A DNA stretch of 64,000 bases, taken from positions 2,170,001-2,234,000 of the forward strand of contig NZ_CP054043.1 of assembly GCF_013282725.1 (NCBI RefSeq), read 5' to 3'. Origin of the DNA: Yersinia mollaretii ATCC 43969 (GTDB taxonomy: Bacteria; Pseudomonadota; Gammaproteobacteria; Enterobacterales; Enterobacteriaceae). The notes beneath the pieces are model-generated. The model made no database searches. It was not told the origin of the DNA and saw nothing but the letters and a program-made list of their open reading frames with translations. This document shows, in pieces, positions 18,011 through 36,876 of the stretch (within the stretch, counting starts at the first letter, position 1; each line of letters begins with the position of its first letter). The position numbers and the translations under genes are program-made.

Positions 18011-18036
18011 CATGCGGATTTTTCCGCATGTCTTTT
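18011..18036 (+). terminator. Terminator/attenuator after the major pilin gene
   Basis: An 8-bp GC-rich stem (CATGCGGA / TCCGCATG) with a TTTT loop is followed by TCTTTTT. It lies between the major pilin and the remaining fimbrial genes, so partial readthrough would set the excess of major over minor subunits. Confidence 0.8.
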
Positions 18037-18076
18037 TATCTTGAGAAAGATACGTGTTGGATGAGCTAGGTGATTT

Positions 18077-18625
18077 ATGTCCAGGTCATTTTTTCTGATA
18101 GTGCCTCCTTCCTTGCTAATGGCGTCATTGTTGAGTTTTTCGGCAATGGCTGATCCCATGAAGACAGATTTGGGCTACGTGAGTATGGAAGGAAGTATTA
18201 CTGATACATCTTGCGCGATAGACCCCGGAAGTCTGGAGCAGACTATTGATATGGCGATTATGCCGATCGGTCAGTTGGTTGAGAACGGCGTGGGAAATGA
18301 GCATCCGTTCGCGATTCGCTTACTGGATTGCACGATAGTCCATGCCGACCCAGATAAGTCTAATCGGCAGCATTTTACAGTGTCATTTGATGGCGCAGCA
18401 GACGGCAATAATTTCGCGGTTTATGGCGAGGCTGAAGGCGTCGCAATGCAGATCATTGATGATAAAGGAAATGCTTCGACGCCAGGGGTGCCGTCACCGG
18501 AAATTAATATTATCCCTGCTGATGATATGAGACTCAATTATGCCCTGCGGTTAGTGGGCAATGGCAAGATGCTGCGTGCTGGAAACTACTATTCCAGTGT
18601 TCGTTTCAAATTGGATTATTACTGA
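18077..18625 (+). CDS. Fimbrial subunit, MrpB-like
   Basis: This 182-residue secreted pilin-family protein has a signal peptide ending AMA (about residue 25), the donor-strand/first-cysteine segment VSMEGSITDTSCAID, and the terminal motif VRFKLDYY. By position, second in an MR/P-ordered cluster, it matches MrpB, thought to act as the fimbrial anchor or terminator. It shares the GEAEGVAMQI block with the major pilin family. Confidence 0.82.
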   Translation: MSRSFFLIVPPSLLMASLLSFSAMADPMKTDLGYVSMEGSITDTSCAIDPGSLEQTIDMAIMPIGQLVENGVGNEHPFAIRLLDCTIVHADPDKSNRQHFTVSFDGAADGNNFAVYGEAEGVAMQIIDDKGNASTPGVPSPEINIIPADDMRLNYALRLVGNGKMLRAGNYYSSVRFKLDYY

Positions 18626-18630
18626 TTTCA

Positions 18631-21192: not shown

Positions 21193-21291
21193 AAAGGTTG
21201 AGCAATGGACCTGCGGATAACAGCTCGTTTAGCGAACAGAAAACGATCGGCGCCACTAGGTTCTGACATAATTAATTCGAAGGAAAAGGTC

Positions 21292-22038
21292 ATGAAATTG
21301 AATAACAAACTGCGCATCACCACCCTTTTGGTGACGGCATTGATAGCTCATCAGGCGACTGCGGCGATTGCGCTGGACAGAACGCGGGTGGTGCTCAATG
21401 GCGGCGATAAGTCGATCAGCCTGAACATCAGCAACCAGAATAAGCAACTGCCTTATCTGGCGCAGGGATGGATCGAAGATGAGCAGGGGAACAAGATTAA
21501 CTCCCCACTGACCGTGGTTCCGCCAGTTCAGCGCGTAGAGCCGGGCGCACTCAGCCAGTTAAAAATACAGACCTTGCCTGCGGTGAGCCAGTTGGCGCAA
21601 GACCGTGAGACGCTGTACTACTTTAACCTGCGTGAAATTCCACCACGCTCGGACAAAGCCAACACCTTGCAAATTGCACTGCAAACTCGCATCAAGCTGT
21701 TTTACCGTCCAGCCGGCATCGTGCCACAAAAGGCTGATATGGCGACACCTTGGCAAGAAAAAGTGCAGTTGACCCGTCAGGGCGATCGCTATCAGGTGAA
21801 TAACCCGACGCCGTATTTCATCACGCTGGTGGATGCCAGTGAGAGTAAAAATGGCAAAACAGCCGCAGGCTTCAAACCGCTGATGATCGCGCCAAAATCT
21901 CAAGGCATGTTGGATGTCAGCGCGGGCGCACTGGGCAGCAAACCGGTACTGACTTACGTCAATGATTTCGGTGGCCGACCAAAAATGATCTTTGGCTGTA
22001 CTGGCAGCACCTGCTCAGTGGTCGAAAGTATTAAATAA
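21292..22038 (+). CDS. Periplasmic fimbrial chaperone (PapD family)
   Basis: This 248-residue protein has a signal peptide ending ATA (residue 24), an N-terminal Ig domain with the family Arg and strand (LDRTRVVLNGGDKSISLNI), and YYFNLREIPP followed by IALQTRIKLFYRP, the standard PapD signature. It donates its G1 strand to fold pilins in the periplasm. ATG 21292 was chosen because it follows AAGGAAAAGG and gives a proper signal peptide; the longer open frame from 21205 is not needed. Confidence 0.93.
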   Translation: MKLNNKLRITTLLVTALIAHQATAAIALDRTRVVLNGGDKSISLNISNQNKQLPYLAQGWIEDEQGNKINSPLTVVPPVQRVEPGALSQLKIQTLPAVSQLAQDRETLYYFNLREIPPRSDKANTLQIALQTRIKLFYRPAGIVPQKADMATPWQEKVQLTRQGDRYQVNNPTPYFITLVDASESKNGKTAAGFKPLMIAPKSQGMLDVSAGALGSKPVLTYVNDFGGRPKMIFGCTGSTCSVVESIK

Positions 22039-22139
22039 CCACTGTATTTCGAAATAACAATGTATCTCGGTACGGTTTTAGCTGAGCACATGAGCCGACA
22101 GCGCGGATGTCAGACTGAACGATGAAAAAGGAATATGGG

Positions 22140-22694
22140 ATGACTGTTGTTTTTAGTAGCTCAATTTGTCGCAACTCAGTTTGTCACAACACGGCTATCC
22201 GGCTGGCACCGATGGTTATGATGGCTTTCATCGGCGCGACGACATTATTCAGTAGCTCTGCATGGGCGCTGAATAAAGTGGCGACGGTCAATGTCACGGT
22301 CAATATTTTTGCTGCGCCACCTTGTGTGATTAACAGCAACAGCATGATTACCGTCGATTTTGGTGATGACCTGCTGACTTCGCGTATCGACGGCGTGAAT
22401 TACATGAAGCCGGTGAACTATAGCTTGAACTGTACTGCGGCAGCATCCAATGCCATGAAAATGAGTATCAAGGGCGACGGTGCCACGCTTGATGCCAGCT
22501 ACTTAAGAACCAGCAATACCGGTTTAGGGATCAAATTGATGAACAGTGGGCAGCCATTTGCCCTCAATACGGCACTCAACTTTACCTATCCGGCTGTCCC
22601 TGTGTTGCAGGCTGTACCGATAAAACAGACCAGTGCTGCGCTGGCGACCGGTCTTTTTACCGCAGCGGCCACCATGGTTGTGGAGTATCAATAA
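22140..22694 (+). CDS. Minor fimbrial subunit, MrpE-like
   Basis: This 184-residue pilin-family protein has a long signal sequence with cleavage near SAWA (about residue 43), followed by APPCVINSNSMITVDFGDD and the C-terminal VVEYQ ending. It resembles the next gene along its length (shared PVLQAVP block), so the two are ancient duplicates. ATG 22140 follows AAGGAATATGGG; ATG 22122 would start inside that ribosome site. By position it corresponds to MrpE. Confidence 0.78.
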   Translation: MTVVFSSSICRNSVCHNTAIRLAPMVMMAFIGATTLFSSSAWALNKVATVNVTVNIFAAPPCVINSNSMITVDFGDDLLTSRIDGVNYMKPVNYSLNCTAAASNAMKMSIKGDGATLDASYLRTSNTGLGIKLMNSGQPFALNTALNFTYPAVPVLQAVPIKQTSAALATGLFTAAATMVVEYQ

Positions 22695-23188
22695 TGAAAA
22701 ATAGCGCATTGATATCGCACATTTCTGTTGCGGTGGTACTGGCACTGAGTAGCTCACTGGCCTATGCCGAGAATATGACTTTTTCGGGCACATTGATTAA
22801 TCCTCCACCTTGTGTGATCAGCGGGGGGAGCACCATCGATGTGGCTTTCGGGGAGAATCTGGGGGTGAACAAGATTAATGGCATCAATTACACCCAGAAT
22901 GTGCCTTACACCGTTATCTGTGATACGCCTGTGGGCGGTTCGGCATTGGGCCTGACGATCATTACCGGGTCAGTGACCACCTTTGATCCCGCAGCGGTCC
23001 AAACAGACACCCCGGATCTGGGTATTCGAATCCTGAAAAACGGCACCGCTTTTACCCTGAATACGCGTGTTGCCTATGACAATCATAACCCGCCAGTGCT
23101 TCAGGCGGTGCCGGTTCAAGCGCCGGGTGCGACATTAACTGAAGGTGCCTTTGAGGCCACCGCTACATTATTAGTGGATTATCAATAG
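22694..23188 (+). CDS. Minor fimbrial subunit, MrpF-like
   Basis: This 164-residue pilin-family protein has a signal peptide ending AYA (residue 25), NPPPCVISGGSTIDVAFGEN, two cysteines, and the terminal LLVDYQ. It is a paralogue of the preceding subunit and overlaps its stop codon by one base. Its position matches MrpF of the MR/P operon; it is probably a tip fibrillum component. Confidence 0.8.
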   Translation: MKNSALISHISVAVVLALSSSLAYAENMTFSGTLINPPPCVISGGSTIDVAFGENLGVNKINGINYTQNVPYTVICDTPVGGSALGLTIITGSVTTFDPAAVQTDTPDLGIRILKNGTAFTLNTRVAYDNHNPPVLQAVPVQAPGATLTEGAFEATATLLVDYQ

Positions 23189-23194
23189 GATCAA

Positions 23195-23743
23195 ATGATG
23201 GCTAATTTAAATCTACTGATACGCCCTGACCGAATTATTTTTAGCATTTTGATGCTGACTATTTTTGGGGCTATGCCGACATGGGCCGTGGATAATATGC
23301 GCTTTCACGGCGCATTAGTTGCCGAGCCTTGCACAATACGCCCCGGCGACGAAGCAATTAGCTTGAACTTTGGTACGGTGGTCGATAAATACCTGTATTC
23401 GAATCAACGTACTTTAGGTAAGCAATTTCAAATTCATCTGGTTGATTGTGATATCAGCTTGGGTAATACCGCCAAAATCATGTTTACCGGTAATAACAAC
23501 CTTAAATTACCGGGGTTATTAGCGGTCACTGATACCGAGATGGGTATCGGCATTGGTATCGAAACATTGGCGGGTAGAGCTTTACCACTTGACCAAGCCA
23601 GTGAAGATATTTCGCTTAATGCGGATAGCAATATTATTACGTTGAAAGCCTATGTTCAGGGTGAGCCAGAGGCGATTACTCAGCGCACAATTAAGCGCGG
23701 TGAGTTTAATGCTGTTGCCACCTTTAGCTTGCAATACTATTGA
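23195..23743 (+). CDS. Minor fimbrial subunit, MrpG-like
   Basis: This 182-residue pilin-family protein has a signal peptide ending TWA (about residue 31), the MRFHGALVAEPCTIRPGDE donor/cysteine segment, and the C-terminal ATFSLQYY. It resembles the major subunit more than the E/F-like pair (PGLLAVTDTEMGIGIGIE block). ATG 23198 is an equally possible start. In MR/P the equivalent gene is mrpG. Confidence 0.8.
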   Translation: MMANLNLLIRPDRIIFSILMLTIFGAMPTWAVDNMRFHGALVAEPCTIRPGDEAISLNFGTVVDKYLYSNQRTLGKQFQIHLVDCDISLGNTAKIMFTGNNNLKLPGLLAVTDTEMGIGIGIETLAGRALPLDQASEDISLNADSNIITLKAYVQGEPEAITQRTIKRGEFNAVATFSLQYY

Positions 23744-23829
23744 GCGGTGAATTACCCCGCCTGATTTATTTCAATACCAATGTGTTACTACGGAAACTTA
23801 TTATCAACAGCACCAATGCTGATAGGACA

Positions 23830-24669
23830 ATGGAACTTAAACAGATGGAACAGCCTAATATGCGATCCAATAATGGATATTTCTGGCTAATAGCTTGCGT
23901 GCTGTTCTTATTGCCGCTCTATAGTCAAGCCAGTGCCTGGGTTTCGACCCAAACGCGCGTGGGAAATCAATATCAAGGGACATTTTCTTGGCCGAGCGAG
24001 GAGATGCAGGGGGTACTTTGTACTGCTGCATCTTGCTCTGTAGCAATATGTCACTACTCGACAGCACCCAATGCCGAAATATGTGGTAACCCATCGAGTG
24101 CTTTGACGCGCGTTATTGTCCCTCAGGGGGCGACGGCGGAGATGATGAGAACCGCTTTTGTGGCTAAAAATGGAGTTTCAAAGGATTGGGCCACGGTGAC
24201 ACTTGATCCATTACGTGCTGTGGGTAGCTGTTTTGGCGTGATGTATTGGCAAGGGGCAAATGACGGGAATACCACTGGTAGGGTTATTCCTGGTTCCTAC
24301 TGCGGCGCGGTTCCTCCTACACCAGAAACCTGTGAGATTACGGGTGATGTCAATATCAACTATGGCTCACTGAGTCAGCAAGCGGTTGATGGTGCTATAA
24401 AAAGTGAGCCACTGAACATTAATTGCACCCTCAGAACCTCAGTGATATTGACACTGGTGGGTGGTAAAAGTATCAACCTTGGACAAAATGGGAACCTGAC
24501 GTCGACATTGAAAGTGGCTGGGCAAGACCTTGCCAGCACCAACGGTGTCACGGTAACTCCTAATGCGGGGAATAACGCCTTCCCGATTGAATCAACACTG
24601 CATTCGGTAGGATTACCTGACGCGGGAACATTTAGCGGCAGTGGAGTTGTGATTATGTCATACCTCTAA
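23830..24669 (+). CDS. Fimbrial tip adhesin, MrpH-like
   Basis: This protein of about 279 residues has two domains. After a signal peptide ending QASA lies a unique, cysteine-rich receptor-binding-like half (ASCSVAICHYSTAPNAEICG). The second half is pilin-like, starting CEITGDVNINYGSLSQQ and ending VVIMSYL. As last gene in an MR/P-ordered operon it is the likely tip adhesin (MrpH position). ATG 23830 follows AGGACA; the open frame extends upstream to a TTG at 23740 overlapping the previous gene, and two nearby ATGs (23845, 23860) are also possible. The ligand is unknown. Confidence 0.75.
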   Translation: MELKQMEQPNMRSNNGYFWLIACVLFLLPLYSQASAWVSTQTRVGNQYQGTFSWPSEEMQGVLCTAASCSVAICHYSTAPNAEICGNPSSALTRVIVPQGATAEMMRTAFVAKNGVSKDWATVTLDPLRAVGSCFGVMYWQGANDGNTTGRVIPGSYCGAVPPTPETCEITGDVNINYGSLSQQAVDGAIKSEPLNINCTLRTSVILTLVGGKSINLGQNGNLTSTLKVAGQDLASTNGVTVTPNAGNNAFPIESTLHSVGLPDAGTFSGSGVVIMSYL

Positions 24670-24996: not shown

Positions 24997-25185
24997 ATGA
25001 AAAAAATGAATATGGCTGATGCCAATACAATCGTTGGCGGTACTGGTGTTACTTGTAAAGATACTTACGAGTGGTTGACTGGTAGCACCACTTTAACTTG
25101 TCAGGCAATCACTACTTGTACTGACAAACACGGTAAAGTGACTAGCCGTACTGTTGCACCTTCTAATGTTGCTAACTGCAAATAA
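24997..25185 (+). CDS. Double-glycine-leader secreted peptide precursor with four cysteines
   Basis: This 62-residue precursor has residues 1-15 (MKKMNMADANTIVGG) matching the C39-processed leader consensus: hydrophobic at -12, acidic at -8, Ile at -4, Gly-Gly at -2/-1. Cleavage would release a 47-residue Thr-rich core starting TGVTCKDTYEWLTGS, with cysteines at 20, 35, 41 and 61, enough for two disulfides. It is followed by a hairpin and then by a DsbA-like protein, an acyltransferase, a C39 exporter and a fatty acid synthesis set. It may belong to the small Enterobacterales family DUF4762 (memory, unverified). Its activity is unknown; a bacteriocin or signalling peptide is likely. Confidence 0.8.
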   Translation: MKKMNMADANTIVGGTGVTCKDTYEWLTGSTTLTCQAITTCTDKHGKVTSRTVAPSNVANCK

Positions 25186-25235
25186 GAAGTCAGTTTAAGT
25201 ATCTGTTAACTTATCTTGATATTTAACGATACCTT

Positions 25236-25266
25236 GGCAAGCACAGGGTGAATAACTGTGCTTGCC
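25236..25266 (+). terminator. Hairpin after the peptide gene (attenuator)
   Basis: A perfect 11-bp stem GGCAAGCACAG / CTGTGCTTGCC with a 9-nt loop is followed by TGCTTTAATTT. The weak T-tract suggests partial termination, so that precursor mRNA exceeds that of the export and modification genes. Confidence 0.75.
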
Positions 25267-25415
25267 TGCTTTAATTTGATTAATACGAAATTGATTTTAA
25301 GATTCAAGAATTTTCGCATTAACTGAATGTTAAACAATACGTTTTTAAGTGGGCATAAATGTGATTTAACATTTGTTTATGTCTTTACCTGAACCCTGAA
25401 TGTGAATACACCTTT

Positions 25416-26117
25416 ATGTCTATCAAAAACGAGATGTCGATAAAAAACAGTATATTTAGAAATAAGGGATTTTTTATCGGTTACACACTGTTGGTTATCC
25501 TTATTTCTTCACTGATAACAACAGCCTGTTTCCACTATTTCGTGCTTAATCAGGACACACAGGAAACGCTGTTTTCTGTCAGCGACGGTGAAATCGCCAA
25601 CAGCCCGATCAAAGACGACAAAACAATTATTGAGATCTTCTCTTACGGTTGCCACTACTGCGCCATCAACGAAGAGAATGTCGCTCAGTTAGAAAAGCGC
25701 ATGCCAGAGGGCAGCCGCTTTATCCGCCTGCATATTAGCAGTGATAGAACCAGCGGATTAGGGCGCTTCGCCCCGATGTTTGCCACATTATCGGTGATGG
25801 GCATTGAGTCGCAGCACCGCCAAAGTGCCTACAAAGCGGTACTCGAAGATAACGTCGATTTTAGTGATAACAGCCAACTTGAGAACTGGTTAAAAGCCAA
25901 TGGCATTGATGTCGCCAAATATCAGCAAGCGAGCCAGTCAGCGGAAGCTAAAGCGCTGATCGCCTATATGACGGCCGTCACGGCGCACTACAAAATTGAT
26001 GCCACCCCGACCTTTATTGTCGGCAAGAAATGGATCGCGTTACAGGATCGTGAATTCCCTGCGTTCTCCGATCACCTCTTATCACTCCTCGAACACGATA
26101 AGGCGCTGGAGAAATAA
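25416..26117 (+). CDS. Membrane-anchored DsbA-like thiol oxidoreductase
   Basis: This 233-residue protein has an N-terminal membrane anchor (about residues 18-40) and a periplasmic thioredoxin/DsbA fold. The active site is CHYC at residues 79-82 (SYGCHYCAINEEN), and the cis-Pro loop is IDATPTFIVGKKW. It would oxidise or isomerise thiols; the four-cysteine peptide upstream is the obvious candidate substrate. The start is uncertain: MSIKN is repeated six codons later (ATG 25434) and neither ATG has a strong ribosome site. The stop overlaps the next start (TAATG). Confidence 0.85.
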   Translation: MSIKNEMSIKNSIFRNKGFFIGYTLLVILISSLITTACFHYFVLNQDTQETLFSVSDGEIANSPIKDDKTIIEIFSYGCHYCAINEENVAQLEKRMPEGSRFIRLHISSDRTSGLGRFAPMFATLSVMGIESQHRQSAYKAVLEDNVDFSDNSQLENWLKANGIDVAKYQQASQSAEAKALIAYMTAVTAHYKIDATPTFIVGKKWIALQDREFPAFSDHLLSLLEHDKALEK

Positions 26118-27073
26118 TGAGACTGCTAGCCGTATGGAGTTATTTCGCCTGGAGAAATCAGCTGGATAAGCTGGCATTCAGCGGGCGAGCACTCATTCGC
26201 TGGCAGGCCCAACTGGCTATCTGGCTATTACGGTACGGTGATTATCGCTTCTTACTGATGCTCGGCGCTTTGCGCCGGGCTTTCGGTTTGGTGTCACGGC
26301 GGCAGAAGAATCTGGCGCGGGTGGCGGCAGCCAATAGCCAATGTTTGTTGGGGGGCAAAAACAGCCCGTCGGCACGGAGTTTTATCCGCACCGCACAACG
26401 GCGTCAGGTGCTGGAGTTGGCGGCAACTTATGGGCAGAGTCGGCGCGTTTTAGCACAGTTGGCCGCCTGTACTCAGCAGTTGGACAGTCATGTCAGCGCA
26501 CTGCACGATGCCGGCTCGGCGGTTGTTTTAGCGCCACTGCACATGGTCTCTGATGTGCTGGCGGGCATGGTCGGTGCAGGGGCTTATCCGGGGCAGGCGA
26601 CGGTGGTGGTTTCGGCCAGCGCCGAGGTGTATGAGGAGCAGGCGCGGCAAATGGGCGGAGTGAATATCTCTTACTGCTCCATTCATGCTGATAGCCGCGC
26701 GATTGCCGGTAACCTGATGGATGCCATTATGGAAGCGGCTGAGCATAAGCGAAATATCATTGTTTTTCCGGATATTACGCCTGATTACACCGTCAATAAC
26801 CAGATGGCGGAAACGGCCAAAATGTCCTGCCAACTGTTTAACCGACCCGCCAATTTACACAGCGGCATTATTCGCATCGCCAGAGCACTGTCGGCGCAGG
26901 TGGTTTTTTATTACCTGTATTACGACAAAGGGATAAAAATTCATATTTACCCTGCACTTAGCGCGCGAGAAGTGAAAAAACAATTACCCGAATTGATTGA
27001 AACATCAATGACGCAGCATCCACAAGATTGGCTGTTATGGCACTCGCATTCGTTATTTTTTATTAATGAATAA
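26117..27073 (+). CDS. LpxL/HtrB-like acyltransferase superfamily protein
   Basis: This 318-residue protein resembles lipid A late acyltransferases in overall layout: an N-terminal basic/hydrophobic stretch, then APLHMVSDVLAG, then NIIVFPDITPDY, and a C-terminal QDWLLWHSHSLFF (compare QYQWxHRRF of LpxL). The normal catalytic motif is H-x4-D/E. Here His142 is followed by Asp at +4 (H-x3-D), one residue short. It could transfer the acyl chain made by the downstream ACP-dependent enzymes to the peptide or to a lipid. Function is inferred from fold and neighbours. Confidence 0.65.
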   Translation: MRLLAVWSYFAWRNQLDKLAFSGRALIRWQAQLAIWLLRYGDYRFLLMLGALRRAFGLVSRRQKNLARVAAANSQCLLGGKNSPSARSFIRTAQRRQVLELAATYGQSRRVLAQLAACTQQLDSHVSALHDAGSAVVLAPLHMVSDVLAGMVGAGAYPGQATVVVSASAEVYEEQARQMGGVNISYCSIHADSRAIAGNLMDAIMEAAEHKRNIIVFPDITPDYTVNNQMAETAKMSCQLFNRPANLHSGIIRIARALSAQVVFYYLYYDKGIKIHIYPALSAREVKKQLPELIETSMTQHPQDWLLWHSHSLFFINE

Positions 27074-27098
27074 AGTCACTCATCAAGAATAGTAGACA

Positions 27099-29249
27099 AT
27101 GGAAAAGATAATCCCGACACAAGTTTTTCAAAGCGAAACCAATGAATGCGGCTTGGCCTGTATCTCGATGCTGGCCCAGACGCAAGGCATCAACGCGCCC
27201 TTGGAAAGCTTGCGGGAGCGCTATCCTGCCTCACAGCATGGCACCTCACTGGCCACGTTGTGCACTATTTTGTCTGAGCTGGCGATCCCGGCTTACCCGG
27301 TGGTATTTGAACATCAAGAGCTGTCGGCCATCCCGTTGCCGGCTATCTTGCATTACGGTGCTAACCACTATGTGCTGCTCGCTTACCGTAAAGGTAACTA
27401 CGTCTGTGTGATGAATCCGGCGATCGGGCAGCAGTTGTTGCCGATGGATGCGCTAAAAGCCGAGATCAGCGGCTATGCGCTGGTGTTGGACCCTGAAACC
27501 CCCGCCGATCCTGATGCCGTGAAGAAGATGGAGCACAGCAAGCGGCTCAGCGCGCTCGACTGCATGAGCCTGAAAGAGACCGCGAGTGTGCGTGGCATCT
27601 ACTGGCTGATGACCTTGGCGTTTTTGATCTCGCTGACGCTTTTTATCATGCCGACCATGGTCAGCAGCGCGATCAATGACGTCTTCTCCTCGGTGGGTGA
27701 TAAAGATTTCCCCTATTTCTATTTTTTGCTGGCCTTTGTGGTCTCCACCTCACTCGCTTTTTGTGTGCGCTACATCACCGAGCGCTACATCAAGCAATTT
27801 GTGGTGCTCAATAGCGTCGCGGGTTTTGCCCGCTTGCTCAGCCATTCGCTTAACTTTTTTGATAAGCGCGCGCCCGGTGACATCTTTAGCCGCTTCTCGA
27901 ACTGGCAAATGGCCGCCACCCAAAAAATTGAGCTGGATAACGGCCTGCGCACCGACTGGATTATTGGCGCGATTGCGCTGGCGGTGATGTGCTACATGAG
28001 TCCGCTACTGGCGATGGTCTCTGCGGTTGGCGTGATGCTGATGGGACTTATCAGTATTTGGGCCATCTACCGCGACCGCTATTACACCCAGCAGTTGCAG
28101 GTCAAAGGCGCTGAGCAGAGTGATTTCATTCTTGAGACCATTCAGGGCTTCTCGACCATCAAATCTGCTGGTTTAGCCAGCCAACGCCAAGGGGTGTTTG
28201 CCGGGCTGGCGCTGTCACTGTTCAGCGCATTACAGAAGAAAAAAATCTACGATCAGGTCAAAAACAGCCTTTATCAGCTGATCGGCAGCCTCGAAATGGT
28301 GTTCTTTATGCTGCTGGCGCTGCCGATGTTGAAGCAGGGAACACTCAGTCTGGGCGAGTTTTTTGCTTACAGCTTTGTACGCGAAATTTTCACCTCGTAT
28401 ATCACCAAGATTTTCTATGCGATCTTGCAGAAAAACCAACTGCATGTGATTGATATTCGTGCTCGCGATCTGTTCCCGGCCGGGCAGCCGACGCCGCCTG
28501 AAAACAGCTCGGTGATCCCTCCGGCGATCCCAGCGTTTACCCGCCAGTTGGAGTACCAGAATATCCGTTTTGCCTACGATGCCAGCCAGCCGGTCCTGCG
28601 CGATTTGTCGCTGTCACTGACCCGTGGGCAGAGTGTGGCGATCATCGGCGAGTCCGGTGCCGGGAAAAGTACCTTGCTGAAAGTGATGGCCGGTTTGATG
28701 CCGCCACAGCAAGGGCAGGTGTTGGTGGATGGCGAGCCGGTTGATTTTCAGCAGGCCCACGCGCTGTTCTTCCTGCAAAGTCAGGAGGACATCCTGTTCA
28801 ACGCCTCGGTACTGCAAAATATCACCCTGTTTGATGGGCAGTTGGATGCCGAGAAGCGCCAGCGTATTGAGCGCTCCCTGCAAGGGTTGCAACTCACCTC
28901 GGTCATCGACAAATTACCGGGCGGCCTCAGTGCGCTGGTGCGTGAAAGTCATGCCGCGCTCTCTTTGGGACAGCGCCAACGGTTATTACTGGCCCGCGCG
29001 ATGTACAGCGATTGCCCGGTTTTGGTGCTGGATGAACCCACGGCCAATCTGGATGAAGAGACTGCTCATCAGGTGATGCAGACCTTATTGGCCCATTGCC
29101 GTGAATACCAGAAAACGCTGATCACCGTGACCCACAGTGAGAGCGTGTTGCCGATGTTTGACCGGGTTTTCCGCTTGAACGACGGCCAACTGGTGCGTTT
29201 TTCTCAGTCGGTGACAGCCCATCACCTCACCCCTGCGGCGGTTAACTGA
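27099..29249 (+). CDS. C39 peptidase-containing ABC exporter
   Basis: This 716-residue bacteriocin-type exporter has an N-terminal C39 peptidase (about 1-130) with the catalytic motif QSETNECGLAC (Cys17) and His90 in ANHYVLL. There are six membrane segments (about 160-440) and a C-terminal ATPase with Walker A GESGAGKST (about 517), signature LSLGQRQR and Walker B VLVLDEPTA. It should cut the double-glycine leader of the 24997 peptide during export. The third catalytic position, normally Asp in ComA-type proteins, is Asn106 (MNPAIG), at the normal 16-residue distance from His. Confidence 0.92.
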   Translation: MEKIIPTQVFQSETNECGLACISMLAQTQGINAPLESLRERYPASQHGTSLATLCTILSELAIPAYPVVFEHQELSAIPLPAILHYGANHYVLLAYRKGNYVCVMNPAIGQQLLPMDALKAEISGYALVLDPETPADPDAVKKMEHSKRLSALDCMSLKETASVRGIYWLMTLAFLISLTLFIMPTMVSSAINDVFSSVGDKDFPYFYFLLAFVVSTSLAFCVRYITERYIKQFVVLNSVAGFARLLSHSLNFFDKRAPGDIFSRFSNWQMAATQKIELDNGLRTDWIIGAIALAVMCYMSPLLAMVSAVGVMLMGLISIWAIYRDRYYTQQLQVKGAEQSDFILETIQGFSTIKSAGLASQRQGVFAGLALSLFSALQKKKIYDQVKNSLYQLIGSLEMVFFMLLALPMLKQGTLSLGEFFAYSFVREIFTSYITKIFYAILQKNQLHVIDIRARDLFPAGQPTPPENSSVIPPAIPAFTRQLEYQNIRFAYDASQPVLRDLSLSLTRGQSVAIIGESGAGKSTLLKVMAGLMPPQQGQVLVDGEPVDFQQAHALFFLQSQEDILFNASVLQNITLFDGQLDAEKRQRIERSLQGLQLTSVIDKLPGGLSALVRESHAALSLGQRQRLLLARAMYSDCPVLVLDEPTANLDEETAHQVMQTLLAHCREYQKTLITVTHSESVLPMFDRVFRLNDGQLVRFSQSVTAHHLTPAAVN

Positions 29250-30424
29250 TGCGTATCAACATGACGAGCAGGACTCGACGTTTATCACTTCTGCTGCTGA
29301 TCACCCTACTGTTGGTGATTGGCGGTGGGGTGGCGCTGTGGTTATCGGATAGCCAGCAAGATGCGGCCCCCGTGACTGAAATCATTGGTCGCGGTGATAT
29401 TGAAAATAATGTCATGGCAACCGGCAGCTTAAAACCCTCATTGCAGGTCAATGTCGGTGCGCAGGTCAACGGGCAGCTAACCAAGCTTTATGTGAAGCAG
29501 GGTGACCGCGTGACCCGAGGCCAATTGCTGGCAGAAATCGACCCCACGCTACAGCAGAACGAATTGCGTAAAACCGGGGCTGAATTAGAGAGTGCGCAGG
29601 CGCAGAAGCAGGCCGCGCAGGCACTGTTGCGCCAATACTCACTGGAACTTCGCCGCCAGCAGACTTTGATCAAAGAAGGCTCCGGTATGCAGAGCACACT
29701 GGAGAAAGCGCAGGCGCAATATGAGAGCCAAGTGGCGCAGGTACGTGTGAATGACGCCTTGATTGTGCAGAGCCAAACGGCGATGGAGACCGCCAAAGCT
29801 AATTTGGCCTTTACCCGCATCATGGCACCCATTGATGGTGAAGTGCTGGGCATCGTCACCAAAGAGGGGCAGACCATTGTCTCCTCACAAAGTGCACCGA
29901 CGATTTTGGTCTTGGCGAATGTCGATACCATGACGGTACACACCCGTATTTCCGAAACTGATATTCTCAAAGTCAGTGTCGGGCAGCCGCTATGGTTCTA
30001 TGTGGTGGCCAATCCTGAGCGCCGTTACGACAGCCAAATGGATGCCATTCAGGAAGCTTCGGCGGAGAGTTTACGTGAAGATAATGCCGGACAGCAGGCC
30101 AACCAGCAGCCCTCCGCCATCTATTACAACGGCATGTTTAACATCGCCAACCGCGAGCGGCTGTTGCGCACCTCAATGACGGCGCAAGTGTTTATTATCA
30201 CCGCGCAGGCGAAGAATGTGCTGCGGGTACCTTTGTCCGCACTGGGTGAACAGCAGCCGGATCAGCGCTATCGAGTGCAGGTGATCAACGGCAAACAGAC
30301 CGCGATCCGCTGGGTCTCCCTTGGCCTGCGTAATGGTCAATATGCCGAAGTGAAAGAGGGATTAGCGCAGGGCGATCAGGTGGTGCTAATGGCTGCGCCA
30401 GCAGGGGCGGCCAATGAGCCATAA
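29249..30424 (+). CDS. MacA-like periplasmic adaptor protein
   Basis: This 391-residue membrane fusion protein has an N-terminal membrane anchor (about 12-33), a split biotinyl-lipoyl domain (VNVGAQVNGQLTKLYVKQGD and IMAPIDGEVLGIVTKEGQ), an intervening helical hairpin and beta-barrel domains, with the gamma-loop-like LVLANVDTMTVHTRI typical of MacA. It would bridge the MacB-like transporter and the outer membrane factor encoded next. Its start overlaps the exporter stop (TGATG), and it overlaps macB-like by 11 bp. Confidence 0.88.
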   Translation: MRINMTSRTRRLSLLLLITLLLVIGGGVALWLSDSQQDAAPVTEIIGRGDIENNVMATGSLKPSLQVNVGAQVNGQLTKLYVKQGDRVTRGQLLAEIDPTLQQNELRKTGAELESAQAQKQAAQALLRQYSLELRRQQTLIKEGSGMQSTLEKAQAQYESQVAQVRVNDALIVQSQTAMETAKANLAFTRIMAPIDGEVLGIVTKEGQTIVSSQSAPTILVLANVDTMTVHTRISETDILKVSVGQPLWFYVVANPERRYDSQMDAIQEASAESLREDNAGQQANQQPSAIYYNGMFNIANRERLLRTSMTAQVFIITAQAKNVLRVPLSALGEQQPDQRYRVQVINGKQTAIRWVSLGLRNGQYAEVKEGLAQGDQVVLMAAPAGAANEP

Positions 30425-32411
30425 CACGACTCATGTTGGCATAGCTGATGTTGACACGGCTGATGCTGAGTCGCGTCCGCTGATCCAGCTTAAGGGCATT
30501 TATCGCCACTTTGCATCTGGCGCACAGTCTGTCGCGGTGCTGAAGAACATCTCACTGTCGATTCACAGCGGCGAAATGGTGGCGATCATCGGTGCATCGG
30601 GTTCGGGCAAATCGACACTGATGAACATAATCGGCTGTCTGGATAAGCCGACACAGGGCGAGATGTCGATTCATAACATCCCGACAGGTGAAGCCAGCAG
30701 TGAACAACTGGCGCAATTAAGAAGCCAGTACATCGGTTTTATTTTTCAGCGCTACCACCTGATGCCCTACTTAACCGCCAGCGAAAACGTGGTTATTCCG
30801 GCACTCTACACCGCGATGACCGCCGCCGAGCGCCAAGAACGTGCCGTTTACCTGTTGCGCCGTTTGGGGCTGGGCCAGCACCTGTTGCACAAACCGGCGC
30901 AGCTCTCCGGCGGACAACAGCAGCGGGTGAGTATTGCGCGCGCACTGATGAATGGCGCGGGCATTATTCTGGCGGATGAGCCGACGGGGGCGCTGGATCG
31001 CGCCAGCGGGCAGGAGTTGATGGGGATTTTGCATGGCCTGCATCAGTCCGGCCACACCATTATTATCGTGACCCACGATCGCAATGTTGCTAATCAGGCC
31101 CAGCGCATCATTGAGATCAGTGACGGCGAGATTATCGCCGATCGCCAAAACGATGTGGCCGAGAGTGCCGCCGTTCATGCGGCGTTACCCGCTACCGTGG
31201 CCACTGGCCGCCCCCACTGGTGGTTGAGTGTCAGAGAGGCGATCAAAATGGCGTGGCGCTCACTGCTTGGGCACCGCATCCGCGCCTTTTTATCGATGCT
31301 GGGCATTATTATCGGCATCTCCTCAGTGGTCTCCTCGATGGCCGTGGGAGAGGGGGCACGCCAAGAGATCCTCAGCGAAATCAGCCAGCTAGGAACGAGC
31401 ACACTGGATATTCGCCCCGGATTGGGCTGGGACAAACCGCGCCCGGATCTGGAGCGCTCCCTCACGCAGGCGGATGTTGAGTTACTCAGTCAGCAGCCTT
31501 ACGTCGATAGCTTGTCACCGGTGGTCAGCAAAATGGTGAGCGCAGTACGTGGCGAGAAAAAAGTGATGGTCAATCTGGCGGGCGTCGGCAGCGGCTTCTT
31601 TCAGGCGGAGGGGCTGAGTTTTATCAACGGCGCGGGGTTTAACCCCAACCATGTCAGCACCCGTGAGCCGGTGGTGATCCTGCAACCGGAACTCAGTGAC
31701 ACCCTATTTGCGGGCGGGCAGAACCCGATTGGCGAGATTGTGCAACTCGACGGTATTCCGTTACGGGTGGTCGGGGTGGCTAAGCGCGCAGGGATGCAAT
31801 TCGGTGGATTACTCAGCGCGTGGATGCCCTACACCTCGCTGACGGAGCGCATCTCCGGCGATATTCCGCTGGAGTCAATCACCCTGCGGGTGCGCGACGG
31901 TTACGAGCTGAATGCGGCGCAACGTCAGGTCGAGGTGCTGCTGGATCAGGCCCATCGTCAGCGCGACTTTTTTATTCTGAGCAATGATGAGATGAGCAAA
32001 GCCATCCAGAAAACCTCTGATTCGATGACGCTACTGATCACTGCCATCGCCGCTATTTCGCTGCTGGTCGGCGGGGTGGGCGTGATGAATATCATGCTGG
32101 TGTCAGTGACCGAGCGCACCCACGAAATCGGCATTCGCCTATCAGTGGGCGCACGGCAGAGTGACATCATGCTCCAGTTCCTAATTGAAGCGGTAGTGAT
32201 CTGCACCCTCGGCGGTTTGATTGGCATTGCTGGATCCGCACTGGCTGGGGTGGTTTTCTCGTGGGTGACACAGACCTTCACCATGATTTTTACTTGGCAG
32301 CCGTTGGCGCTGGCTTGCGGTTTCTCTGCACTTATCGGGCTGGGATTTGGTTTTTTCCCCGCTCGCAATGCCGCCCGTTTGCATCCGACCGAGGCGCTGG
32401 CTCGAGAATGA
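30414..32411 (+). CDS. MacB-like ABC transporter (ATPase-permease fusion)
   Basis: This 665-residue protein has an N-terminal ATPase with Walker [21 protein letters not shown], signature [15 protein letters not shown] and Walker [13 protein letters not shown] four-helix FtsX/MacB membrane domain follows, with a large periplasmic region and the C-terminal [20 protein letters not shown] motif. MacB-type mechanotransmission pumps move substrates from the periplasm through a TolC-type channel. Here the likely substrate is the leader-free peptide placed in the periplasm by the C39 exporter. An N-terminal extension of about 20 residues precedes the ATPase. Confidence 0.9.
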
Positions 32412-33820
32412 ATAAATTAATTAATGCCGGGCTTATCACCCTGCTGCTCACCGGTTGTGGCTCGCTGCTGAAAAGTGATTATCAGCGGCCAATGTTGTCG
32501 GTGCCTGACGAATGGCGAGTGAAAGAGAGTGGCGGCGGCTACCTGAAGCACAGTGTGCACTGGTGGGAGAATTTCGATGATCCGCAACTCACTGACAACA
32601 TCAACCGCATGTTGGTCAGCAATAACGATCTGGCGGCGGCTGGGCTGAAGTTACAGCAAGCGCGGCTTACCGCAGGGCTGACCAATACCAATATGACCCC
32701 GAATGTCACATTGACGGGCGGGGGCAGTAACACGCGTTCGCTGAATGAAAATACCGAACCGCGAGAGAATTACAGCACCTCGCTGGGCTTGAGCTACGAG
32801 CTGGATCTGTGGGGCAAACTGGCCCGCGCCCGTGAACAATCGGCGTGGCTAGTGAATGCCACTGAACAGGATCGCCAAGAGACTGCGCTCTCGATGATTG
32901 GCACCACGGCGGATCTCTATTGGCAGATTGCCAAATTCAATCAGCAGTTGAGCTATCAACAGGCGGCATTGGCTATCTCGCAAGACACTCTAAAGATGGT
33001 GCAATCACGTCAGGCGGCAGGGGATGCCAGTGAGATTGAGCTGTTGCAGGCGCAGCAGACATTATTGGATCGCCAAAACCAGCAGCAGAATCTCGAACAG
33101 CAGCGGGAAGCAGCACGTAATGCCATGGCACTGCTGTTTAACCGCGCGCCTGATTATCGTCAGGCAGAACGCAACTCATTGGATCTTCAGCAGCAAGTAC
33201 CGATAGCTGAAAGCTTGCCGCTACAGGTGATTGCCCAACGGCCCGATGTGCAGGCCGCCGAGTGGCGCTTGCGTGCCGCTTTGGCCGGATCGGATGTGGC
33301 TAAACTGAATTTCTACCCAACACTTTCACTGGGTGCCACGCTGGATGCCGGAAGTGCGGTGTTCTCACAGTGGTTTAGCAACCCGAGCCGCACCTTAAGT
33401 GCCAGCGGCGCGTTGCCTTTCTTACAGTGGAATACCGTGCAGCTCACCATCGACCAGTCGAAGGTGGAGGTGCAACTGGCCGCCGTCGATTTTCGCCGCA
33501 AGGTTTACAGCGCGCTCAAAGATGTGGATGACGCCATGACCCAGCGGCTGAGTTACCAGAAACAGAAACAGAATCAGTGGCAGAACCTGCAACTCAGCCA
33601 ACGTCGGTTGAGTCTGACTAACAGTCAATATCAGGCGGGTGCCATCTCATTTCAGACCTTGCTGGACGCGCAGGATGCCCTGCTCGCCAGTGAAACCAGT
33701 TTACTCGAACTTCAATATAACTACCTGAATGCCACCATGAAATTGTGGCTAGCCCTCGGCGGTGGCGTGGTGAACAGTGAAGTTGATAACAGTAAGGACA
33801 GTAAAGGAACTAAATCATGA
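32408..33820 (+). CDS. TolC/NodT-family outer membrane efflux lipoprotein
   Basis: This 470-residue outer membrane factor has a lipoprotein signal with lipobox LLTGC and two related TolC-type helical/strand repeats (LSYELDLWGKLARAREQSAW is the first hallmark; RPDVQAAEWRLRAA the second). It completes a tripartite MacA-MacB-type pump. ATG 32408 overlaps the macB stop (ATGA) and gives a good lipoprotein signal, so it is preferred over the longer frame from 32261. Presence of a private outer membrane channel suggests the cluster does not rely on chromosomal tolC. Confidence 0.9.
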   Translation: MNKLINAGLITLLLTGCGSLLKSDYQRPMLSVPDEWRVKESGGGYLKHSVHWWENFDDPQLTDNINRMLVSNNDLAAAGLKLQQARLTAGLTNTNMTPNVTLTGGGSNTRSLNENTEPRENYSTSLGLSYELDLWGKLARAREQSAWLVNATEQDRQETALSMIGTTADLYWQIAKFNQQLSYQQAALAISQDTLKMVQSRQAAGDASEIELLQAQQTLLDRQNQQQNLEQQREAARNAMALLFNRAPDYRQAERNSLDLQQQVPIAESLPLQVIAQRPDVQAAEWRLRAALAGSDVAKLNFYPTLSLGATLDAGSAVFSQWFSNPSRTLSASGALPFLQWNTVQLTIDQSKVEVQLAAVDFRRKVYSALKDVDDAMTQRLSYQKQKQNQWQNLQLSQRRLSLTNSQYQAGAISFQTLLDAQDALLASETSLLELQYNYLNATMKLWLALGGGVVNSEVDNSKDSKGTKS

Positions 33821-35067
33821 CGAAGACAGAAAAGCAGCGCCGGGTAGTGGTAACAGGTTACGGCAGCGTGACCCCGATGGGCATGACAGCCAAAGAGAGC
33901 TGGGCCGCCATTATGGATTACCAATTGGGTTACCGTTATTACGATAAGTCTGAGCAAGGCATTAAGTCGCGCTTTTTTGGCTTACTTGACGCTGAACCCA
34001 ATCTGAAATCGGTCCCTGCGGCCATTCGCCGCCGCCTACCACGCTATGCCCGACTGGCACTGGCAGCAGCGCGAGAGGCCATGGGGATGGCGTTCGGCGA
34101 GCAATCGCCTGAAGCCTATTATGATTTGCTGGACTGCGGCACCATCATCGGCAGCGGCTGGGCCGGGCAAGATGAGACCCATGATAACTACGAAGGCTAT
34201 CTGGAAACTGGGCTGGGCACCCCTTTCGGCTGCTTCCTGTCCATGCCGAATGCCGGTACCGCCGCCTGTAGCTTGTACTGGGGATTGCGCGGTTATCAGA
34301 ACTCACCGATCGCCGCTTGCGCCACCGGAACGATTGCCATTGGTGATGCATTTGAAATTATTCGCAGTGGTCGTGCATCCATGATGCTGGCCGGGGCGGG
34401 TGAATCCCTGCGCAGTGATGCGGCGGTGTGGAATATCGACATTCTAGGCGCACTGGCGCGCGAGCAAGAGGATGTCACCAAAGCCAGCTGCCCATTCAGC
34501 TTGGACAGAAACGGTTTTGTGCTCTCTGAAGGCGCAGCCGTATTGTGCCTCGAAGAGCGCGAAGGGGCGATTGCCCGTGGCGCGACTATCCTCGGCGAGA
34601 TCAAAGGCTACGGCAACTACTCCGATGCTTTCGACTTTACCGCACCAGCAGAAGATCGTGTGGCGCGCGTGAAAACCATCCGCCACGCCTTGCAGCAGGC
34701 GGGTTTGAGTGCCGAAGAGATTGATTACGTTAACCTGCACGGCACCTCGACTCAGCTTAACGATCTGAATGAAACTCAATCCATCAAGCAGGCATTTGGG
34801 GATGCAGCCTATACCACGCCACTCTCCAGTACCAAATCCTACTCCGGCCATTTGATTGCGGCGGCGGGCAGCTTTGAGTCGATTATCTGCCTGCAAGCTC
34901 TTGAGCATCAGATCATGCCGGCGACCTGCAATCTGAAAAACGCGGATCCGCAGTGCGATCTGGATTACATCAGCGAAGGGCATCGGCCAAAAGCCTTGCG
35001 CAATACACTCAACCTCAGCTTCGGCTTTGGCGGGGCGAATGCGGCACTGGTTATCGGGCTGGATTGA
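33817..35067 (+). CDS. Beta-ketoacyl-ACP synthase (FabF-like)
   Basis: This 416-residue condensing enzyme has the Cys-His-His triad intact: Cys168 in PIAACATGTIAIGDA, His308 in VNLHGTST, His345 in KSYSGHLIAAAG. The spacings are the same as in E. coli FabF (163/303/340). The surrounding motifs deviate from housekeeping FabF (SYSGH rather than the usual TGH context), pointing to a specialised acyl chain. It is coupled to the outer membrane factor by an ATGA overlap and followed by dehydratase, ACP and reductase. Confidence 0.9.
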   Translation: MTKTEKQRRVVVTGYGSVTPMGMTAKESWAAIMDYQLGYRYYDKSEQGIKSRFFGLLDAEPNLKSVPAAIRRRLPRYARLALAAAREAMGMAFGEQSPEAYYDLLDCGTIIGSGWAGQDETHDNYEGYLETGLGTPFGCFLSMPNAGTAACSLYWGLRGYQNSPIAACATGTIAIGDAFEIIRSGRASMMLAGAGESLRSDAAVWNIDILGALAREQEDVTKASCPFSLDRNGFVLSEGAAVLCLEEREGAIARGATILGEIKGYGNYSDAFDFTAPAEDRVARVKTIRHALQQAGLSAEEIDYVNLHGTSTQLNDLNETQSIKQAFGDAAYTTPLSSTKSYSGHLIAAAGSFESIICLQALEHQIMPATCNLKNADPQCDLDYISEGHRPKALRNTLNLSFGFGGANAALVIGLD

Positions 35068-35069
35068 GC

Positions 35070-35873
35070 ATGATCTTTAACTACACGCTCAGCGATGCTG
35101 AGCGCTGGGCTAAATTCTCCGGCGATGACAACCCGATCCATTTTGATCTGCAACATGCGCAGCGTCTGGGTCAGCAGCAACTGACGGTCCACGGTATGCG
35201 CGCCATGCTGGATATCAAATATCAGCTCAGTGCGGCGCTATTGCCGGTGATGCCGAAGGCGGATTTTCTGCGCTTTAATGCCCGCTTACGCCAACCGGTG
35301 CTCTGTCACACGGCCTATCAGCTGCAACTCAGTGAGGCGGTGGGGCAGGTCAGCGGCAGTCTGTTGGATATTGGCACTGGCGAAAGCTGCTTTAACAGCA
35401 AATTACGCAGCGGGCCGACGCTGGCAATGGTGGAGAGTGATCACTGGCATTCGCTATCGGCGGAAAATGTCCATCAGCTCAGCCAGCAATTCCCCGGTAA
35501 TGCATCAGAACCCGCTGAGTGCTGGGGATTTTTCGACGCGCTGCTGTTTAAGTTGTTAGTGGCCGCCCCTGAAACCTTGGCAAGCGCTAAACAGGTGTTG
35601 CCGGGGATTGAGGCTGACACCTTGATTGATGTTTTCAAACATGTGCCGGTTATCCAGACGCACCATGACGTGCATTTCAGTGCGGATTTACTGCGCACCA
35701 ACCCGCATTTATTTGTCCGTAGCGCGCTGCAATATGCCATTGAACCGACGTTAATCATCGGCAATGCCGAAGATGGCTGGGTATTGCGCACTGCGATTCA
35801 GGCCCGGTCAGATGCCGGACCTCTGATCACCACCGCCGTAACATTAAAAACGTGGCCAGTGGCCGCGAACTAA
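35070..35873 (+). CDS. MaoC-like (R)-3-hydroxyacyl dehydratase
   Basis: This 267-residue hotdog-fold protein has the hydratase-2 motif FSGDDNPIHFDLQHA (residues 16-30; catalytic Asp19/His24), followed by a second, more divergent hotdog-like half. It would dehydrate 3-hydroxyacyl-ACP, supplying the step missing between the ketoreductase and an (absent) enoyl reductase. ATG 35070 lies 2 bp after the ketosynthase stop and puts the motif at the N-terminus as in MaoC proteins; the open frame extending into the previous gene is ignored. Confidence 0.78.
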   Translation: MIFNYTLSDAERWAKFSGDDNPIHFDLQHAQRLGQQQLTVHGMRAMLDIKYQLSAALLPVMPKADFLRFNARLRQPVLCHTAYQLQLSEAVGQVSGSLLDIGTGESCFNSKLRSGPTLAMVESDHWHSLSAENVHQLSQQFPGNASEPAECWGFFDALLFKLLVAAPETLASAKQVLPGIEADTLIDVFKHVPVIQTHHDVHFSADLLRTNPHLFVRSALQYAIEPTLIIGNAEDGWVLRTAIQARSDAGPLITTAVTLKTWPVAAN

Positions 35874-35888
35874 TTAAAGGATAAGACC

Positions 35889-36137
35889 ATGGAAAAGTAT
35901 CAACACGTTTATGACACCGTTTGCGAAATGCTGTGTGACGCCAAAGATCTGGAAATGTCGGATCTGTCGCCAGAAATGTCGCTGCATCAACTGAAACTCG
36001 ACAGTCTGGATTACGTCGAACTGATGGTGCTGGCAAAGCGCGAATTCGGTGCCACGCTGAGTGCCGAGATGTTTATGGAAAACCCAGATATGACATTAGG
36101 AGAGCTTTGCCAGAAGTTGGCCGAGCAGAAGAAATAA
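35889..36137 (+). CDS. Acyl carrier protein
   Basis: This 82-residue acidic helical carrier has the phosphopantetheine site KLDSLDYVEL (Ser39). It would hold the growing chain for the flanking ketosynthase, dehydratase and reductase. AAAGGATAAG lies before the ATG. No dedicated phosphopantetheinyl transferase is seen in the window, so a host enzyme (AcpS/EntD type) must load it. Confidence 0.9.
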   Translation: MEKYQHVYDTVCEMLCDAKDLEMSDLSPEMSLHQLKLDSLDYVELMVLAKREFGATLSAEMFMENPDMTLGELCQKLAEQKK

Positions 36138-36141
36138 TATT

Positions 36142-36876
36142 ATGAGCAGGAAATGGGTATTCATAACGGGCGGTAGTCGCGGCATTGGCCGCGCCTTGGT
36201 CGAAGAGCTGGCTAAAGAGTGGGATGTGGTTTTTACCTGGCGTAGCGGTGAGCAACAGAGCAGCGAAGTGATAAAAAGCTGCGAAGGACTACCCGGCTCA
36301 GTGACCAGTTACCGCTGTGATGGCAGCAACGAAGCGGATGTTGACCAATTGGCCCCGCTGCTGCTGGAGAAATATGGCCCGCCGGGAGCGGTAATTCATA
36401 ATGCGGGCATTACCGGTGACAGTTTGCACATTCAGCAAAATGGCGATAACTGGCGCAGTGTGCTGGACACCAATCTGAACGCGGTCTTCTACTGGAATAA
36501 ACATCTATTGCCGCAGATGATGATGCAGGGCGAAGGCGCAGTACTGCTGATGTCCTCGGTCACTGCCATCAAAGGCAATATCGGGCAGAGCGCCTACGGG
36601 GCCAGTAAGGCGGCGATGATTGGCCTTGGCCGCTCACTGGCGCTGGAGATGGGGCGCTTTAATATTCGCGTTAACTGCCTGCTGCCGGGGATCATCGACA
36701 GCGACATGACGCGCGCCATGCCTGCCGATGCCTTAAAAGGGCTGCGTAAACAGATCCCGCTTCGGCGTTTAGGTGACGTGCAAGAGGTCGCCCGCGTCAG
36801 CGCCTTTATGATTGGCGATGATAGCCGCTACATGACCGGCCAGACACTGGTGCTTGATGGTGGGTTAACGGCGTAA
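36142..36876 (+). CDS. 3-oxoacyl-ACP reductase (FabG-like)
   Basis: This 244-residue SDR has the NADPH motif GGSRGIGRAL at residues 10-19, HNAGITGD, the catalytic Ser (LLMSSVTA) and YGASK, and the terminal DGGLTA. It would reduce the ketoacyl-ACP made by the neighbouring ketosynthase. It is the last gene of the continuous run from 24997. The set lacks an enoyl reductase and a malonyl transferase, so products may stay unsaturated or use host FAS II enzymes. Confidence 0.9.
   Translation: MSRKWVFITGGSRGIGRALVEELAKEWDVVFTWRSGEQQSSEVIKSCEGLPGSVTSYRCDGSNEADVDQLAPLLLEKYGPPGAVIHNAGITGDSLHIQQNGDNWRSVLDTNLNAVFYWNKHLLPQMMMQGEGAVLLMSSVTAIKGNIGQSAYGASKAAMIGLGRSLALEMGRFNIRVNCLLPGIIDSDMTRAMPADALKGLRKQIPLRRLGDVQEVARVSAFMIGDDSRYMTGQTLVLDGGLTA

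Follow-up and report, generated by a model that had tools for sequence, protein, structure and literature searches.

A Putative Lipopeptide Gene Cluster with C39 and MacAB-Like Exporters Adjoins a Fimbrial Operon in Yersinia mollaretii and Other Enterobacterales

Organization of the Gene Cluster

A cluster of eleven genes on the + strand, running from position 24997 to 36876, was analyzed in Yersinia mollaretii ATCC 43969 as a candidate pathway for a ribosomally made, fatty-acylated peptide. The window, meaning the whole stretch of 64,000 nucleotides studied, comprises bases 2170001-2234000 of the 4.60 Mb single-contig genome, and all positions are given within it, as shown in Table 1. A preliminary description of this DNA had placed eleven same-strand genes here and named their families; the open reading frame (ORF) map returned the same positions, the family searches agreed with the identities, and the gene boundaries held overall, with two starts corrected (outer membrane factor, ATG at 32408; dehydratase, ATG at 35070). 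The gaps between neighbors, in order from the peptide gene to the ketoreductase gene, are 230, -1, 25, -1, -11, -4, -4, 2, 15 and 4 bases, the largest following the peptide gene and all others lying between -11 and 25.

The precursor peptide scores 40.7 bits against DUF4762, above the Pfam cut-off of 27. All parts of a MacAB tripartite pump are encoded, namely a MacB with ATP-binding cassette (ABC), periplasmic core and FtsX domains, a MacA adaptor and an outer membrane partner, and the scores of MacA and MacB below the NCBI equivalog cut-offs point to a divergent branch of MacAB. The hairpin after the peptide gene, possibly an attenuator or mRNA end, was not listed by a separate hairpin and promoter scan that took loops of at most 8 bases (this loop has 9). 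Hairpins after the peptide genes of other loci were called by loose rules with no control and carry little weight, and the promoter scan gave no excess (8 found versus 10.9 expected). Just 3' of the cluster, at 37053-37672, lie a Gp49-like and an HTH_37 gene (Pfam), likely a toxin-antitoxin pair, of which the Gp49-like gene is presumably HigB-type.

Table 1. Features of the cluster and its surroundings (positions within the window; aa, amino acids).
Feature	Position	Strand	Evidence
Precursor peptide, 62 aa	24997..25185	+	DUF4762 E 2.3e-10; alignments
Hairpin, 11-bp perfect stem, 9-base loop, then T-rich	25236..25266	+	3' of peptide gene; no shuffle control
DsbA-like thiol oxidase, N-terminal hydrophobic segment, CHYC motif	25416..26117	+	DSBA E 3.3e-11
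LpxL/PatA-like acyltransferase	26117..27073	+	AlphaFold model and fold search; weak Lip_A_acyltrans match
C39 peptidase-containing ABC exporter	27099..29249	+	Pfam Peptidase_C39 8.2e-23
MacA-like periplasmic adaptor	29249..30424	+	NCBIfam MacA E 1.9e-88, 297 bits, equivalog cut-off 342
MacB-like ABC transporter	30414..32411	+	MacB_PCD, ABC_tran, FtsX; NCBIfam MacB E 1.4e-216, 721 bits, equivalog cut-off 966
NodT-type outer membrane factor, lipobox LTGC	32408..33820	+	TIGR01845 E 1.1e-76
FabF-type ketosynthase	33817..35067	+	TIGR03150 E 1.8e-110
MaoC-like hydroxyacyl dehydratase, D-x-N-P-x-H motif	35070..35873	+	Pfam MaoC 2.3e-5, 24.4 bits, below cut-off 27
Acyl carrier protein (ACP)	35889..36137	+	PP-binding E 3.3e-10
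Ketoacyl-ACP reductase	36142..36876	+	TIGR01830 E 2.7e-66
Chaperone-usher fimbrial operon	17466..24669	+	Pfam: two subunits, usher 18631-21192, chaperone 21205-22038, three subunits, MrpH-like adhesin 23740-24669

Linkage of the Genes across Genomes

A scan of named genomes anchored on an acyltransferase profile yielded 58 Enterobacterales loci, with acyltransferases down to 35% pairwise identity. The genera concerned are Yersinia (which holds the named loci closest to the window), Serratia, Klebsiella, Enterobacter, Citrobacter, Providencia, Hafnia, Rahnella and Pantoea, many of them gut- or plant-associated. The C39 exporter, MacA, MacB, outer membrane factor, ketosynthase and ACP are each present in all 58 loci, the peptide in 56, the DsbA-like gene in 54, and the ketoreductase and dehydratase in 53 each. 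The raw count for the dehydratase was 55; it was lowered because the matches in L110 and L125 cover 13% and 9% of the query, respectively, and overlap the ketosynthase. The order of the genes present is identical in 58/58 loci, and a set and order that recur with acyltransferases this divergent are more than chance. The preliminary description had named, beforehand and as a possible refutation, a genome survey of whether linkage of the fatty-acid genes to the peptide extends to other genomes, and the ketosynthase and ACP proved to be linked throughout. The co-occurrence of all eleven families, for which it proposed a search, holds for the six that are always present, together with the acyltransferase used as anchor, but the dehydratase, ketoreductase and DsbA-like genes are dispensable in some lineages.

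The absences are confined to a few loci. The Serratia marcescens group (L110, L115, L120, L122 and L125) keeps the ketosynthase and ACP without the dehydratase and ketoreductase, with the ACP gene directly after the ketosynthase gene in L110. Three Rahnella loci (L117, L118 and L121) have no DsbA-like gene; L118, the second cluster of a Rahnella laticis genome, also has no recognizable peptide or fimbriae and is apparently a decayed copy. L106 begins inside the acyltransferase gene at a contig end, and its peptide and DsbA region falls outside the contig.

In the reciprocal test, the ketosynthase was used as the anchor in 198 genomes of the family, and 22 loci from 21 genomes, counting the window, made up the clade at 65% identity or more. 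Every one of these ketosynthases belongs to a copy of the cluster (L060-L080 and the window), and 13 of the 21 loci besides the window are also part of the named set; L070 is without ketoreductase, L069 is without a DsbA-like gene, and the frames of L080 are broken. Ketosynthases at the next level of similarity (47-53% identity, L081-L084) stand in other contexts with related dehydratase and ACP genes, in four regions where the peptide, acyltransferase, MacA and outer membrane factor were sought and gave no match; the C39 and MacB matches in L082 both fall on one 245-aa ABC ATPase gene. Three neighbors of the ketosynthase module that were scanned in L083 (two) and L084 (one) had no Pfam match. 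Pairwise protein distances correlate between the cluster genes (Pearson r 0.63-0.96), as expected from sequences of a co-inherited unit, much of which shared descent alone would give.

The Precursor Peptide and Its Cysteines

The precursor consists of a 15-aa double-glycine leader and a 47-aa core with C20, C35, C41 and C61 and a DKHG turn, so the four-cysteine, 47-residue core proposed earlier was recovered unchanged. Among the 56 peptides read from the 58 named loci, core lengths range from 44 to 54 residues and median identity is 60% in the leader and 37% in the core. Cysteines number four in 28 peptides, five in 20, six in six and two in two, and the first core residue is Thr in 41 and Cys in nine. 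The double glycine (GG) is invariant or nearly so in the alignments. A 54-row alignment (the window and 53 of 82 proteins) showed G15, C35, D43, K44, G46 and C61 to be invariant, with C20 and C41 at least 90% conserved. The motif [D/N]KxG is present in 56/56 peptides (NKFG in L120), and its lysine is kept even where Cys41 is gone. The peptide of L135 carries both the last conserved cysteine and an extra cysteine after the DKHG turn.

The peptides of L117 and L121, which have no DsbA neighbor, have lost the cysteines that correspond to C20 and C41 and retain C35, C61 and DKHG, while the other 54 peptides have at least four cysteines and each stands with a DsbA-like gene. The DsbA-like gene and the peptide cysteines thus vary together, which upholds the earlier link between this gene and disulfides in the peptide. 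The AlphaFold model of the peptide (mean predicted local distance difference test, pLDDT, 76.9; predicted template modeling score, pTM, 0.54) has strands at 19-27, 34-42 and 48-56, a short helix at 58-61, and K44 within the 43-47 turn. From the strand limits and register of the model, C20 probably lies opposite C41, with C35-C61 as the remaining pair, and this facing of C20 and C41 fits their natural joint loss in L117 and L121. A fold search with the peptide model returned nothing at E 0.001 or better.

Active Sites of the Encoded Enzymes

The acyltransferase sequence matches Lip_A_acyltrans at E 5.1e-4 (19.8 bits, below the Pfam cut-off of 22.3), and its AlphaFold model (22-row alignment, mean pLDDT 81.5) matches PatA (5oce, E 2.7e-10) and LpxM (5knk, E 1.3e-8). 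Active-site residues were counted in alignments of the window and the named loci, setting aside rows without a residue at the site: 16-17 of 54 for the dehydratase (L110 and L125 dropped beforehand), 3 of 54 for the reductase, 3-4 of 55 for DsbA, and 1 of 59 each for the ketosynthase, acyltransferase and C39 exporter. In the covered rows, conservation is complete: H142, S145 and D146 of the acyltransferase (58/58), C17, H90 and N106 of C39 (58/58), the CxxC cysteine pair of DsbA (51/51), C168, H308, K340 and H345 of the ketosynthase (58/58), S139, Y152 and K156 of the ketoreductase (51/51), and the Asp and Asn (37/37) and His (38/38) of the dehydratase motif, where 37-38 of 54 rows are covered; Ser39 of the ACP is kept in 59/59 rows. 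Most C39 peptidases have Asp at the position of N106. The C39 reading frame is short in six of the 58 loci (L087, L102, L119, L121, L135 and L143), and some other short frames may reflect the start-choice rule. No GNAT family match was found among the cluster proteins scanned with Pfam (the reductase was scanned only against NCBIfam).

The Neighboring Fimbrial Operon

The fimbrial operon of the window ends 327 bases 5' of the peptide gene, outside the interval first described, and its second subunit (18077-18625) is just below the Pfam cut-off. A chaperone-usher operon adjoins the cluster in 53/58 named loci, or 53/55 testable ones once L101, L106 and L117, which reach contig ends, are left out; it occurs on either side and in at least three types. 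The usher lies in the upstream flank in 34 loci, and in 19 of the other 24 (L097-L100, L102-L105, L107-L110, L112, L113, L115, L120, L121, L122 and L125) within ~11 kb of the cluster, on the flanks or among the matches listed in the usher search. Of 18 loci with wider flanks (the window and 17 others), 17 have the operon, 12 upstream and five downstream.

The first type is that of Yersinia. The type upstream in Citrobacter, Klebsiella, Hafnia, Providencia and similar genomes has an usher 42-51% identical to that of Yersinia and ends in a LuxR-type regulator. Serratia- and Rahnella-like loci have a different type with LuxR-type regulators and a tyrosine recombinase (Pfam), the latter of which we take to be FimB-like, and R. 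inusitata has another, its usher about 32-33% identical to the others. These different sides and types argue for repeated gain or strong retention of the fimbrial bond. The outer flanks are mostly unshared, with three genes in common between G218 and G325; the window's flanking ORFs other than fimbrial genes are common only to two Yersinia genomes, save a 45% match (G306) and a 42% match at the level of any ABC ATPase (G166). The genomes carry 3 to 25 ushers, and adjacency by chance was estimated at roughly 2-14% per locus (30 kb in about 5 Mb), a rough estimate over loci that are non-independent by descent.

A Smaller Version outside the Family

The acyltransferase was detected in 21/25 genomes of the genus, the window's own included, and in 7/295 genomes of the order, namely five of the family (window included), G004 and G105. 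The G004 match is by construction, its own protein being in the profile, and the G105 match is independent of the profile. Among 369 genomes of the class, few of them from the window's family, only the window's own genome matched. Outside the family, L085 (G004) holds a 49-aa double-glycine ORF, acyltransferase, C39, MacA and MacB, and L151 (G105) holds two double-glycine ORFs, acyltransferase, C39, MacA, MacB and outer membrane factor; tblastn of both 19.5-kb regions detected no DsbA-like or fatty-acid gene. The two ORFs of L151, of 96 and 98 aa, lie on the reverse strand and are similar, with apparent transposase fragments between them.

From this gene content, the core appears to consist of the peptide, acyltransferase, C39, MacA and MacB, with DsbA and the ketosynthase and ACP, and then the dehydratase and ketoreductase, as apparent additions of the Enterobacteriaceae version. 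Since the acyltransferase stays between the double-glycine ORF and C39 where fatty-acid genes are lacking, it seems to go with the peptide, and this arrangement is the best argument for an acyltransferase acting on the peptide. Together with the linkage and the intact catalytic residues, it favors the earlier proposal that the acyltransferase and fatty-acid genes belong with the peptide.

Proposed Pathway and Alternative Explanations

We consider it somewhat probable that the cluster encodes a ribosomal lipopeptide pathway tied to the fimbrial operon, whose product is acylated, cleaved and exported by C39, oxidized and released by MacAB; every biochemical step is inferred, including acylation, the export route and the role outside the cell. 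First, the ketosynthase and ACP, with the reductase and dehydratase of the operon or of the host, would make a dedicated acyl chain. The S. marcescens group, which retains only the ketosynthase and ACP of these four genes, suggests that the chain is set by this pair, with host enzymes able to supply the remaining steps. The membrane-associated acyltransferase would then transfer the chain, on the cytoplasmic side, from the ACP to the precursor, most likely onto the invariant lysine of the [D/N]KxG turn. The C39 exporter would cleave the leader after GG and deliver the core to the periplasm, where the DsbA-like protein would form Cys20-Cys41 and, probably, Cys35-Cys61. Finally, MacA-MacB and the private outer membrane factor would bring the lipopeptide outside the cell, for a role in surface colonization alongside the fimbriae.

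In Pseudomonas, according to the accessible part of PMC8788793, MacAB homologues are needed to export several lipopeptides and MacB takes periplasmic substrates, which makes an acylated peptide supplied to the periplasm by C39 a natural MacAB cargo and lends support to the pump as the exporter of such a product, as the preliminary description had it. More tentatively, and with considerable doubt, the product could be a lipid-anchored or fimbria-associated, disulfide-braced lipopeptide on fimbriate cells, a new fimbrial accessory and neither a bacteriocin nor a free surfactant.

Several observations weigh against the lipopeptide pathway or its details. The lysine of [D/N]KxG may be conserved for the turn instead of acylation, and the cysteine right after GG in nine of 56 cores is a possible alternative acylation point. 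The acyltransferase has the motif H-x3-D, one residue shorter than the HX4D/E of its superfamily. The dehydratase and ketoreductase are absent in five of 58 loci, and the ketoreductase also in L070, so in some loci the operon does not itself complete the acyl chain. In the L133 peptide (9068-9268), Trp replaces the last cysteine and an extra cysteine follows the DKHG turn, which breaks the simple four-cysteine pattern, and the peptide was modeled with modest confidence. Recognition of the double-glycine ORFs in L085 and L151 was by eye, and the one in L085 has no Pfam match. As for the fimbriae, no usher was found within about 12-15 kb on either side in L118 and L119, both of which look decayed from their sequences (C39 is interrupted in L119), and L071 is the exception among the 18 wider-flank loci, with no fimbrial operon nearby; its genome has a second, fimbria-linked copy of the cluster (L064).

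An unlikely explanation, though the best placed of the alternatives, is that the cluster is a class II microcin variant, in which the peptide is a bacteriocin exported by the same route, its passage to target membranes is aided by acylation or by the lipid genes, and the fimbriae simply happen to lie alongside. A double-glycine precursor with a C39 exporter is the core of class II microcins as described in the accessible part of PMC9746304, and the variable core behind a more conserved leader and the patchy distribution within Yersinia would also agree with a bacteriocin. The cluster nevertheless appears to have MacA in place of the usual adaptor, it has a fimbrial neighbor in nearly all loci, and no immunity-gene candidate was found in or beside the cluster of the window, where neither room for one nor a shared small gene was seen, overlapping or very short genes being possible.

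That immunity gene could be stood in for by a change of membrane lipid. Here the acyltransferase and fatty-acid genes would alter lipid A or a phospholipid, for protection of the producer or envelope fit, and the peptide would be only disulfide-bonded. The closest solved folds of the acyltransferase, PatA and LpxM, do acylate glycolipids, but in every locus examined, including those that lack fatty-acid genes, its gene lies between the peptide or DsbA gene and C39, and we regard such a lipid change as still less likely. Chance sharing of an operon by unrelated modules, for which the ketosynthase, dehydratase and ACP relatives in L081-L084 indicate that the module can travel, was rejected as highly improbable given ketosynthase and ACP in 58/58 loci whose outer flanks mostly differ.

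If the lipopeptide pathway is correct, a class of gene-encoded lipopeptides with its own fatty-acid pathway has been overlooked in common Enterobacterales, an enzyme of the LpxL/PatA type acts on a peptide, and transport by two exporters in series can be tested on this cluster. With fimbriae next to it, a role in colonization can be tested directly by removing genes.

Comparison with Known Systems

Aryl polyene clusters bring together a ketosynthase, dehydratase, ACP, reductase and LpxL-like acyltransferase, as this cluster does. They are not known to have a precursor peptide, C39 exporter or MacAB. The preliminary description knew of no system with this gene set, and the literature search likewise found no description of it in titles and the starts of abstracts, nor any paper mentioning DUF4762, most subscription papers lying outside its coverage. 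A survey of class II microcins sought relatives of ten verified microcins, and its accessible part makes no mention of such clusters (PMC9746304). PMC7726476, initially a possible match, is unrelated as far as its accessible part goes.

Class II microcins (microcin V, L, PDI and others) share with the cluster a small double-glycine precursor, a C39 exporter, an outer membrane channel and, in class IIa, disulfides (PMC9746304, accessible part). Unlike them, the cluster adds MacA-MacB, a private outer membrane factor, an acyltransferase, fatty-acid genes and a DsbA-like gene, and no immunity gene was found; where class II microcins use a membrane fusion protein of the exporter plus TolC, the sole counterparts encoded here are a MacA-like adaptor and a NodT-type factor, which may serve either exporter. 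Nostolysamides, selidamides and lipolanthines are likewise ribosomal peptides with an acyl group, which is presumed here and sits on a Lys side chain in nostolysamide. Those acylated ribosomally synthesized and post-translationally modified peptides (RiPPs) involve a GNAT enzyme, acyl-coenzyme A and lanthionines, whereas in the cluster the enzyme is LpxL/PatA-like, the acyl chain would come from a private ACP pathway, and the peptide has putative disulfides (PMC13060382, accessible part). The PleABC, ArfDE and PvdRT-OpmQ exporters of Pseudomonas also dedicate a MacA, MacB and outer membrane factor to a product, but their cargo is made by nonribosomal peptide synthetases, while that of the cluster is ribosomal and presumably delivered to the periplasm by C39 (PMC8788793, accessible part). 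The label of a new secretion system given earlier was therefore overstated, the transporters being of known families, but the combination and the implied product look new. Overall, we rate the cluster, from its sequence, as a candidate lipidated RiPP with microcin-like export, whose parts belong to known families and whose combination, type of acyltransferase and fimbrial bond appear new.

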